Source: Owenia fusiformis
Taxonomy: Eukaryota > Annelida > Polychaeta > Sabellida > Oweniidae
DNA: 64,000 bases
Assembly (NCBI GenBank): GCA_903813345.2
Contig: CAIIXF020000007.1
Span: 20,571,564 to 20,635,563, forward strand
Reading direction: 5' to 3'
Both the position numbers and the translations under genes were made by a program. This document shows, piece after piece, positions 18,601-24,600 of the stretch; position 1 is the stretch's first letter, and every line of letters starts with the position of its first letter. The notes beneath the pieces were generated by a model. It saw nothing but the letters and a program-made list of their open reading frames with translations. It searched no databases and was not told the origin of the DNA.

Positions 18601-21600
18601 GTACTTTATATGCACTCTCCAGATAGCTCTTTCTATTTATCAGGTAAGATGTTATCTATTCAGTTTTAGTAGGTCAAGTATGTTGTTTATTATTGTCAAT
18701 TAAACACACATGTGTATCCCAACTATCCTCATATATAAATATTACTGATCTATCAATGTTTCATCCAAGCAATTGATCGCAAATTAATGCTTCTTAACAG
18801 CCATGTTGAAGTCGTGTTTCTCCTTTGATATATTCACGATAGTAATATCTCAATCCATGTAACATCTATGTGGAATCCAAGGTTAAAGTGACTTCATCAT
18901 CACAAACCACAAACGCTATTCAGTTCCCGTGTTTGTATTTCGTGAATGAACAATGGTTTGATTTGCTACTTAATCACGATCCTTAATTACGATCTACTAG
19001 AAATGCTTAACTCTTCATGTAGCTTATCAATTTGAATGATAAACATGTGTTTAAATGGTTTGACCTTCGTAATGAAATACCTTGTATTGTGATAGTGAAT
19101 AAATAGAATTATAGCGCATGGTAAAAAAGTAATATCGAAGAGAAATATGAACCTGAACTGAACAAAGTGCTAAGGTTGCATGAGGCCTTTAAACATTCAC
19201 AGGTATGTGACACTTCAAAATAACTTTTACTTTTTTGTTTTCTATTTTTTACCAATACATGAAGTCATAAAGTATTCTAGCCCAGTACTGAGTAACACCA
19301 AAGGTGAAAATTGAACAAAGAAGAATCTAATCAAAACAAAACAGGCATTATGAATGCCTGATTGACATATACACCTAACATACACCTGCCTTTAATGAAG
19401 CTTTCAGATATTCAAAGCGTGGGTTTTTCAAGTAAACAATTTTTTATGATACGGGACAAGGCCCCACACATCTGAACAAAATAAATCTGAAATTAAAATT
19501 GGCACGTCTCTTTAAATTACACCGTTCTAGCTAGAATTCATGTTTGATTCACTGTAAGGTACTACTAAATAGCATGCGGAATATGCTACCACTCGGTATA
19601 AAACTATAAAATGTTGATTTAAATGACTGGATTCATCGCTGCATTAATATCATAAAATAAAAATGGTCCCAAGGCAAAATATATCAACCTGTAACTGCAC
19701 AAAGGGGGTGTTTATCTGCAATTTAAAATCATTTCAGACTATTATTTCACCAACCCCATGTAGAGTAGACATGCCCTTAAACAAAACGGAACTTCTCATA
19801 ATTTTTTTAACCAAATTTTACTGTTTCTTTTTCACTGAAGATAAAAATGTCAAAATCAGTTGAATTTATCAAATTTAAATCCTGGATGGGGTAACAGATA
19901 TAGACTTAAAGGGACATTCGACTCTTTATATCATAAGAAAAATGACTCATCCCAACAGATCTTTTTAAAATTTATGATAACAGAACCAAAATTGGTTGAT
20001 GTGATTCATACTGAAGGAGTGTGACATTTCCCATGAAGTGTCATTGCATGCAAATCAAGATATGACATAACTACATGCAACTTAGGAACATGTAATACTT
20101 CACATAACATCTTAACCCCCTAAAGGTAAAAAAATAAACTACTATAAAGCATGTAAATGTACTTCAAAACATTAAATTTTTAACTGTTTTTTTTCTATGC
20201 AGTTTAATATGAACGCCCCTTGGGTATCAAGTACTGTAGAACAAGATGCCATTCATAAACTGGTTACTCACTTAAGTAAATGAATAAATAACAAAAAGTT
20301 AATTACAAAAAAAAAGAAAAAAACTGAGTTTGTCACAGCATGTAAAGATGGCGGGCTCAGCATTAACAAACTAAACTAGATTCTTTTTATGAATGGCAAC
20401 TCAGGAATGTGTTCAATCTTCCCACTGATGTCCTGTTAAAGGCCAAATGTCAGATATACTGCTTATTATGATGGATTAGTTTCAGGAAGCAATTTGTTGG
20501 GGATAGGAAGCTATTACAAATTCATATACAGAAATTATGAAAACAAGTTAACTGAGTCTAACAACTCTAAGAAATAGAAACGCGTGTCTCACTGTAACAT
20601 AATACAAGGATGGCTATCTAACATCTTATCTTTTCCTTATAAGGTTATATAGCAAAGCATATATAATATCTACGACAATATTCCTCAAAATACAAAACGT
20701 TAAGCATGACATCCATGATGCTAATAAACAGGATGGTGAAGAAGTAATTTGACAGTGCCACTGATTTTTGTTCCTGATACACCCTGTGCCTTACATGTAT
20801 ATACAGTACTATATATATACAGGGTGATCCAGAAGTAACGTCAAAGACATTGTAATTTCAAAAGTATTCATCAGATCTTCATGAAATTTGGTATACATGT
20901 ACCCACAACATTTCTGAGTTACCATCTCAAAGATTGGAATTCAATCATTTCATTGGTTGAAATTATGGTTGCTATAGTAACCCGATATCGCGTAACCCGG
21001 GGCAAATTGAAGAGAAACCATAACGTTTTTGTGAATTTCTCTAATTTAAAAAGTCAGTAACATTTGAAAATGTTCATTGTTTGTTTTCTATTATTTTTAT
21101 ATTTGTTGCCATGGTAACAAATATGTAATAGTTGTGATGTCACAATAGGCATTCATAAAAAGCTTTCAATTTCTTTGAATTGCTTCCATCATCCATGACA
21201 AATACTAACATGACCAAGGACACTAACCCACCCAATTCAAGATGGCGCCAAGTCAGAGTAAAATAGAGCAAAGAACAAACATTAAGTTCTGTGTAAAGTT
21301 GGGGAAAGGTGTAAAAGAGACTATAAGACAGATAAAGAAGGCATATGGTAAAGCTGCCATTGCTGAGAGAAACATTTACAGGTGGTTTAACAAGTATTCC
21401 AGTGGATATGATGAAGTGGTAGACAAGCAGCGAGGAGGCAGGCCAGTGTCGTCATTCGATGATCAAACCATCAAAGCAATTGAAGCTGATGTTATGGACA
21501 ATAGGCAAATTTCTATCAGAGAATTGGCTGAAAAACACGATCTGAGCTATGGGACTGTGCAACGGATACTGACAAAGAACTGTCTGTTAAAGAAGGTGTC

Positions 21601-24600
21601 TGCTAAATGGGTGCCGCATGACTTGACACAGGAGCAGAAAGACCGGCGTGTTAAGGCTTCAAGGGACTTTCTTGCAAAATATCGGAGAGATGGAGATGAC
21701 TTTCTTAACAAGATCATTACGAGTGACGAATCATTGCTATCATTCTACATCCCAGAGACCACGCAACAAAGTTCATCGTGGAAACATGACAACTCCCCAA
21801 CACCAACCAAGCCTAAAATAGTACCAGGAATTCCACAAAAGAAACAAATGGTTGTGACATTCTTTGACATTAGAGGAATGGTGTTAACCCATTTTGTTCC
21901 CATTGGCCAGAGAATTAATGCCGTTTACATTGCAAAGGTAAGATATCATTTGTTCTAATAATACATCATACTGTGAATTTTATTTTTAAATTAAAGTATT
22001 TAAATGTTGTTCACTGTCAATATAATTATAACTCCATGGCCATGATTCAAATCCAAATCCAATCAATGAAACAACTGGTTTAACAACCATTAAACATTTG
22101 TTTTTCAGGTTCTGAAGCGTGATCTTCAACGTTCCCTGAGGAAAAAGCGTCCCGGACATCTGCAGCAGTTTATCTTGCATTGGGACAATGCCCCTACGCA
22201 CACTGCAATCCTGACCAGCAACACAGTCCAAACACTTGGATTTCAACAACTTGAACATGCCCCTTATTCACCTGATCTTGCCCCCAGTGACTTTTATTTG
22301 TATGGGGAACTAAAAAGAAACCTTAGTGGAAATAATTTTCAATCCTGTGATTGAAAAATGCCGTAGTACTAGCCCTACAAGGAATGAGTTCTAATGGATT
22401 TAATTCTGTGTTCAAGGAATGGGTATCCAGACATGAGAAATGTGTTGCAAATGGTGGCAATTATGTAGAATGAACTATTATTAGTAACTGTGCAATAGTA
22501 TGATTTATATTGTTGTGAAATAAAATGTTGAGGATATAACAATTTCAGATCTTGTTGATATTTTGAGATTACGCATTACACGTTAAGTAATTTGCCCCGG
22601 GTTACGCGATATCGGGTTACTATAGCAACCATAATTTCAACCAATGAAATGATTGAATTCCAATCTTTGAGATGGTAACTCAGAAATGTTGTGGGTACAT
22701 GTATACCAAATTTCATGAAGATCTGATGAATACTTTTGAAATTACAACATCTTTGACGTTACTTCTGGATCACCCTGTATATACCCCACATAATTTATTA
22801 TGTGTATGTATAATCATGAGATCAACATTCTATGAGAAAATGAGCCAGATTTACTAATGTTTACAAAAATTAGAGCACTTTTGATCTTACTTAATGATCA
22901 CCCTGTATAGCACTGATAAGATACCCAGAGACAAATGGAGCATAAGAAAGCTATAACTACACCCCCAAAGCACAAGTGATGAGAGATGTCAGAGATACAT
23001 GAGTACCTTGACCAGTGACCCATAAACCATACATAGCAAAAGCCCATCATGAAACCATATTGGTTTACTCCATAATGTGAGAGGCTTGTAGAATATTATT
23101 CGATAGAGGCATTTTTTAAATTGAAGTATCCCCTTGAAGCATCATCTAAAAAGTAGAGCATTTTGGCTAAAAACAGCTCTAAGTTGATGTAATAGGTCCT
23201 GAATATGGGTATAATGTATTTTCAGTCAATTTCTGATACATATTCTCAAAAGGAACTGCAAGGGTTTCAGTACCTATACAATGCTGTTTTCAATCCAAAT
23301 GCTGGAAGCATGCACATGCATAGCAAATAGTGATCACAAGAGTCTGCTTTAAACTGACTACCAAGCAATTGATACATGAGTAGGTGACCCAAAAACCATA
23401 GAAACCAAATATAAACATCTACATCTGCAAAAGGCTAATAAGCCCATTTAAAGCAGATATAAAGCCCTGTATTACTGAAGCAAGTGCGTCTTCTCCACCA
23501 AAGTTAGTGTTAAGTTTACCACATGTAGTTATACCTTGCCGATTGCTATGGGCTTTAATGTGTAGCTTTCCTGAATCTCGTAGTCCATCTCAACTTTCTT
23601 GGGCTTGTGAGGAAACGTGAGAAATCTACTCTGTTTGCACAAAACACAATGCAAAATTACACACTTTTACTAAATATTGGGATTTGGTACAATATCAATG
23701 TCCATTCAATAATATATTTCATAATAATTTCATAATAATATATTTTATATTTCAGGTATTGTTTTAGACTTAACATCAACATCAAAATCTATCAAAGGTA
23801 TATCTCATTATGTTTCAATTCATATTAGATGGACATTTATATTTTGACCAAATCCCTAAAAACAAACATAAATGTACACTCAGCTATATTCAATTAGCAC
23901 ATACTTTTTAGTCACAAATAAAATCCATTATGTTAATTCAAATCAATGCATTCTTGCTTTAAAACATTCAGCTTGAGAAAATAAAATTAACATATTATCA
24001 ATTAATGCTCAAAATAATGAACTATGAAACAACGGCAACGCCAAAGCGTAGCGAATCCCATCAAACATTTTTCAAAAGGGGCACCTTCTACCAAAAGTGT
24101 CATTAGACAGTGTGCCATGCTTATAATATTCACATACCAAATATAAACAAAATCGCTCTACTACTTTTCGATTTATAGTAAAATACGTTAAAATGGTGGC
24201 CATTTTTCAAAATGTCCACCATTTTTCAAAATGGCCGCCTTCTACCAAAAGTGTCATTAGACAGTGTGCCATGCTTACAGTATTCACATACCGAATATGA
24301 ACAAAATCGCTCCACTACTTTTCGAGTTATAGTAAAATACATTAAAATGGCGGCCATTTTGAAAAATGACTGCCCTCTACCAAAAGTGTCATTAGACAGT
24401 GTGATATGCTTATACGTATTCACATACCAAATATGAACAAAATCGCTCCACTACTTTTCGAGTTTTAGTAAAAAAAAGTTAAAATGGCCGCCATTTTTCA
24501 AAATGTCCGCCATTTTTCAAAATGGCTGCCTTCTACAAAAAGTGTCATTAGACAGTGTGCCATGCTTATTGTATTCACATACCAAATATGAACAAAATCG

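Follow-up and report, generated by a model that had tools for sequence, protein, structure and literature searches.

A two-exon mariner family of Owenia fusiformis with a spliceosomal-type intron at a site common to at least eight mariner families of the genome

The window analyzed here is a 64,000-nucleotide stretch of the annelid Owenia fusiformis (assembly GCA_903813345.2, contig CAIIXF020000007.1, forward-strand positions 20,571,564 to 20,635,563), and it includes a complete mariner transposon at 20820-22777 with TA on either side and 189-bp inverted ends that differ at two positions (Table 1). The transposase reading frame starts with the ATG at 21242, stays open through 21937 (232 aa, ending in YIAK) and resumes in the same phase at 22109 (VLKRDLQ). 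The intervening 171 bp have GTAAGA...TTTTTCAG borders, 25% GC, eight in-frame stops and a branch-like TTAAC 29 nt upstream of the 3' end. Both the element with its ends and the interruption of its frame had been described in an earlier note made from the sequence of the window, and both descriptions were confirmed. That note took the 171 bp for a spliceosomal-type intron, a view that the comparison of mariner families described below supports.

The window transposase contains HTH_48 (E 2e-8) and Transposase_1 domains, together with the WVPH and YSPDLAP motifs. The catalytic triad, as aligned, is D162/D258/D293 with a spacing of 34 residues between the last two aspartates (DD34D), and the intron is positioned between the first and the second aspartate. 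When the two exons are joined, the best match among solved structures is the Mos1 transposase (E 1.3e-41, residues 7-311 aligned), and this alignment spans the exon joint without any insertion of the size of 171 bp. The element was thus classified as mariner-like by its TA target-site duplication, its DD34D triad, its Mos1-type helix-turn-helix (HTH) domains and homology across most of the transposase. The usual description of such elements as a single intronless gene, which is not a defining trait, does not apply to the window family. The window copy itself is a dead member of this mariner family: a private 4-bp deletion near 22350, at which the 4 bp are retained by all 29 other sampled copies, brings a stop at 22352-22354 into frame and leaves a product of 313 aa.

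Table 1. Features of the mariner element in the window (positions are those of the window; TIR, terminal inverted repeat)
Feature	Positions	Strand	Evidence or remark
Left TA target-site duplication	20818..20819	.	TA at nearly all intact ends of sampled copies
Left TIR, 189 bp	20820..21008	+	Repeat search; 2 mismatches vs right end
Transposase exon 1, encoding the DNA-binding HTH domains and D162, the first catalytic Asp	21242..21937	+	Open frame; HTH_48 of Mos1, Transposase_1
Spliceosomal-type intron, 171 bp, GTAAGA...TTTTTCAG, phase 0	21938..22108	+	Splice sites in 105 copies; position common to 8 families
Transposase exon 2, encoding the catalytic residues D258 and D293	22109..22473	+	Stop of intact copies corresponds to 22471-22473
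AATAAA polyadenylation signal candidate	22519..22524	+	
Right TIR, 189 bp	22589..22777	-	Repeat search
Right TA target-site duplication	22778..22779	.	TA at nearly all intact ends of sampled copies

Copies of the window family were collected from the genome (~498 Mb, mostly in 12 large contigs). A DNA search returned 129 candidates, of which the 40 that were scored are practically identical across 650 bp. A pattern spanning both splice sites occurred 105 times in the genome, whereas the directly joined exon junction occurred nowhere at up to three mismatches. The suggestion of the earlier note that the family may have spread together with its intron therefore holds for at least 105 copies with both splice sites, and its own test, a genome search for sister copies lacking the 171 bp, yielded none at up to three mismatches. 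We sampled 30 copies, selected for their identity across a stretch that runs from the end of exon 1 through the intron into most of exon 2. With the intron removed, 25 of these 30 encode a full-length transposase of 354-356 aa. With the intron kept, the coding capacity of intact copies falls to ~238 aa, and a full-length protein is encoded by none of the 30. The remaining copies include L004, with 348 aa and an altered end, three broken copies (L001, which is the window copy, L009 and L026) and L002, which could not be scored.

Since the sampled copies differ from their consensus at only ~2.5 sites per 1,966 bp, the burst that produced the window family is recent. Young, dispersed and near-identical copies imply recent activity, and the encoded protein is predicted to support transposition. 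The recent movement claimed by the earlier note is borne out by this low divergence, but its dating from the two differences between the TIRs is not valid. Both mismatches are fixed in the family consensus, and the ends of a DNA transposon, unlike long terminal repeats, are not made identical upon insertion, so they are uninformative on the insertion date. The small number of substitutions in the intron and exon 2 of the 30 copies was also considered as a sign of constraint and was rejected because the loci had been chosen by identity in these very regions. One further copy of the family, L033 (G000:C8:33839600-33842400), has an insertion of ~410 bp near the 3' end of the intron with an apparent 6-bp duplication.

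Other mariner families of the genome were identified by a search with exon 2 only and by a survey with PF01359, which showed frames that end at the same place. At least eight families, including that of the window, have a phase-0 GT-AG intron at the identical residue and alignment column (Table 2). Protein identity of the others to the window family is 40-43% in the alignment and goes down to 38% in exon 1. The eight introns are all AT-rich (22-34% GC), and features of U2-type introns, namely GT-AG borders, a 3' pyrimidine-rich tract and a conserved phase, were found throughout the eight families. In each intron, in-frame stops are reached no more than 29 codons past the 5' splice site, and three of the eight lengths are not divisible by three. 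Apart from one marginal 12-bp match (E 0.008), no sequence shared between any of the introns was found. In the L073 family, 20 copies with the intron and no joined-exon junction were counted. The 5' splice site (AAG/GTAAAC) is also kept in L053, a copy of a ninth and closer relative (~57% identical). Another copy of this sister family (L031, 57%) was tried as a test for presence or absence of the intron and proved unusable, as a deletion runs across the site.

Table 2. Introns at the common site in eight mariner families (a slash marks an exon-intron border)
Family	Intron length	Borders
Window family	171 bp	AAG/GTAAGA..TTTTTCAG/GTT
L073	144 bp	ATG/GTAAGC..ATTTCAG/GTT
L070	173 bp	AAG/GTAAGT..ATTCCAG/GTG
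L071	112 bp	AAA/GTAAGT..TCTCCAG/GTG
L086	195 bp	AAG/GTAAAT..GTTGCAG/GTC
L087	116 bp	CAG/GTAGGA..CTTGCAG/GTT
L082	144 bp	AAG/GTGAGT..TTTTCAG/GTT
L085	141 bp	AAG/GTAAAC..CTTTCAG/GTT

Between families, pN (the proportion of nonsynonymous differences) ranges from 0.29 to 0.45 in exon 1 and from 0.32 to 0.41 in exon 2, which is thus constrained as strongly as exon 1, while the synonymous counterpart pS (0.67-0.85, with 0.67-0.81 for exon 2) is near or at saturation. These values show purifying selection on both exons. As pN lies well below pS, exon 2 would long have been translated in a selected product; it is nevertheless kept behind in-frame stops in every family, for which a joining of the two exons in RNA offers the simplest account. 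The 171 bp are accordingly described here as a spliceosomal-type intron.

We consider it highly probable that the window element is a dead copy of a young, high-copy, two-exon mariner family whose phase-0 GT-AG intron predates at least eight families and is removed by the spliceosome. According to this model, the intron would go back to an ancestor shared by at least eight of the mariner families in this genome. Cut-and-paste movement of DNA would carry the intron along, with no reverse-transcription (RNA) step at which it could be lost, and the host spliceosome would excise it to yield a 354-aa DD34D transposase. An unspliced transcript would code for only 238 aa, keeping the DNA-binding part and lacking two of the three catalytic aspartates. 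Most likely the intron has simply been inherited with the element, and transposition would depend on splicing by the host.

The earlier note had offered two origins, acquisition by a lineage or capture by a TA-flanked copy; the age of the intron decides against a recent gain or capture by a single copy. Not long before the burst, an intronless mariner might have acquired the 171 bp, for instance as a nested insertion that splices, and the youth and near homogeneity of the window family would agree with such an event. However, seven other distant families have their intron at the same residue and phase, the junction pattern revealed no intronless sister copies within its three mismatches, and a repeat search found neither terminal repeats nor a target duplication bounding the 171 bp. 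Recent capture is therefore very improbable, and the intron is old and travels with the element, given that at least eight families at ~38-43% protein identity share its position and phase. A reading without any intron, in which the two parts of the frame code for separate polypeptides or the 171 bp reflect the decay of a dead family, is hardly credible either. It draws on the dead state of the window copy, but sister copies are intact apart from the 171 bp, eight families have kept the same phase and the GT-AG borders, and both exons are under selection. More serious, though still quite unlikely, is the independent gain of introns by several families at a favored proto-splice site (MAG/GT). 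The exon context AAG/GT is such a site, the introns are not related in sequence and a single gain is not resolved by the tree. On the other hand, for introns to arrive eight separate times at the same codon boundary and in one phase, when the open exons examined showed no other intron, is far less likely than common descent followed by fast intron divergence. The eightfold agreement in position and phase makes common descent the preferred reading, and we infer a single ancestral gain; saturation at synonymous sites accounts for the loss of alignable intron sequence.

Several observations weigh against an old, inherited and spliced intron. In the tree of 11 proteins, of which only a small part was resolved, one gain was neither contradicted nor demonstrated (48% of bootstrap trees), and the tree cannot choose between one gain and several (support 53/0). 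A lineage of 35% identity (L040-L042 and L078-L080) is intronless, being continuous over the site with one residue fewer in the alignment. The junction pattern detected no processed (spliced) copy that would prove splicing, at up to three mismatches, and intronless copies with more mismatches would escape it. Finally, actual splicing of the intron is deduced from genomic sequence.

A further possibility adds to the inherited intron rather than excluding it. The intron may have been maintained since its retention yields a 238-aa DNA-binding repressor that limits transposition to some cells, although we regard this as doubtful. The retained product would keep the HTH domains and the first aspartate only, without D258 and D293, and would thus have the expected look of a competitive repressor. 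The early in-frame stops in all eight introns would serve the same end, but such stops are expected for any AT-rich intron of this length, and the case comes from coding capacity. The third intron of the P element (IVS3) provides a firm precedent (PMC7776569), and Tc1-mariner transcripts with both retained and excised introns are known in Sclerotinia (PMC4188875). Slightly more doubtful is the wider proposal that a whole clade of animal mariners has long kept one intron at a fixed site and that retention works as an off switch, yielding a catalytically dead, DNA-binding repressor outside those cells in which transposition is of benefit, as in the P element. Tissue-restricted splicing of the intron is possible.

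Short introns are carried by Tc1 and Tc3 of C. elegans, and Minos belongs to the Tc1 branch. Mos1 and other DD34D mariner-like elements share with the window element the TA target, HTH_48, the WVPH and YSPDLAP motifs and the catalytic triad. However, the published description of mariner-like elements gives them "a single intron-less gene" and ends of 19-40 bp (PMC3158080), in contrast to the one intron and 189-bp ends of the window family. Minos of Drosophila hydei also combines a two-exon transposase and one short intron with long inverted ends (254 bp), its intron being of 60 bp (PMC2874221). Spliceosomal introns are likewise found in TLEWI elements of molluscs, which differ in being Tc1-like and in having 3-5 introns, as far as the work of Puzakov et al. 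(2020) is cited in PMC10379824. In Sclerotinia sclerotiorum, several Tc1-Mariner families have one GT-AG intron of 124-276 nt that is sometimes retained; in contrast to the window family, the intron state varies within these families (PMC4188875). Retention of an intron in the Drosophila P element likewise leads to a truncated DNA-binding protein, for which the window family offers coding capacity only, but its transposase is unrelated, has several introns and is under experimentally proven regulation (PMC7776569).

Searches of an open-access library brought up no account of a conserved intron in DD34D mariners of animals; subscription papers and Repbase were outside this scope, and an earlier description is possible. 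Relatives outside this genome were absent from the viral contig and genome contig collections searched, as expected for an animal transposon. Mariners are textbook examples of transposons that are compact and independent of the host; requiring, in the usual view, nothing beyond their own transposase, they would be able to cross phyla. A conserved intron would make these families reliant on host splicing and would offer a site for regulation by retention. The position and phase of the intron may also serve as a marker for tracing a mariner lineage. The persistence of an intron across at least eight families of a minimal cut-and-paste element runs counter to the usual description of the group, and the reason for it is a testable question.

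Some additional loci were set aside during intron scoring. L064-L069 were left out, as their match to exon 2 is 57-64% and no exon 1 was seen nearby. They are short TIR-bearing elements that hold a piece of exon 2, and in this they resemble non-autonomous elements derived from a family related to that of the window. L081, L083, L084 and L088 were not counted, as exon 2 was absent from the stretch examined. L084 (G000:C7:9150500-9152300) belongs to the family of L085, and exon 2 is missing from the ~900 bp next to its 5' splice site; an insertion in the intron or a truncation is the probable cause. In L072 (G000:C12:26400900-26403300), the intron measures 687 bp, compared to 173 bp in the related and uninserted L070, and hosts a 514-bp element with inverted ends of ~141 bp (74% alike); such an insertion would fit a non-coding stretch. 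In the window, ~90 bp past the mariner, 41 bp at 22867-22907 match the outer end of the right TIR at 78% identity and terminate in ATCACCCTGTA; they may represent one end of a related mariner or the remnant of a miniature inverted-repeat transposable element.
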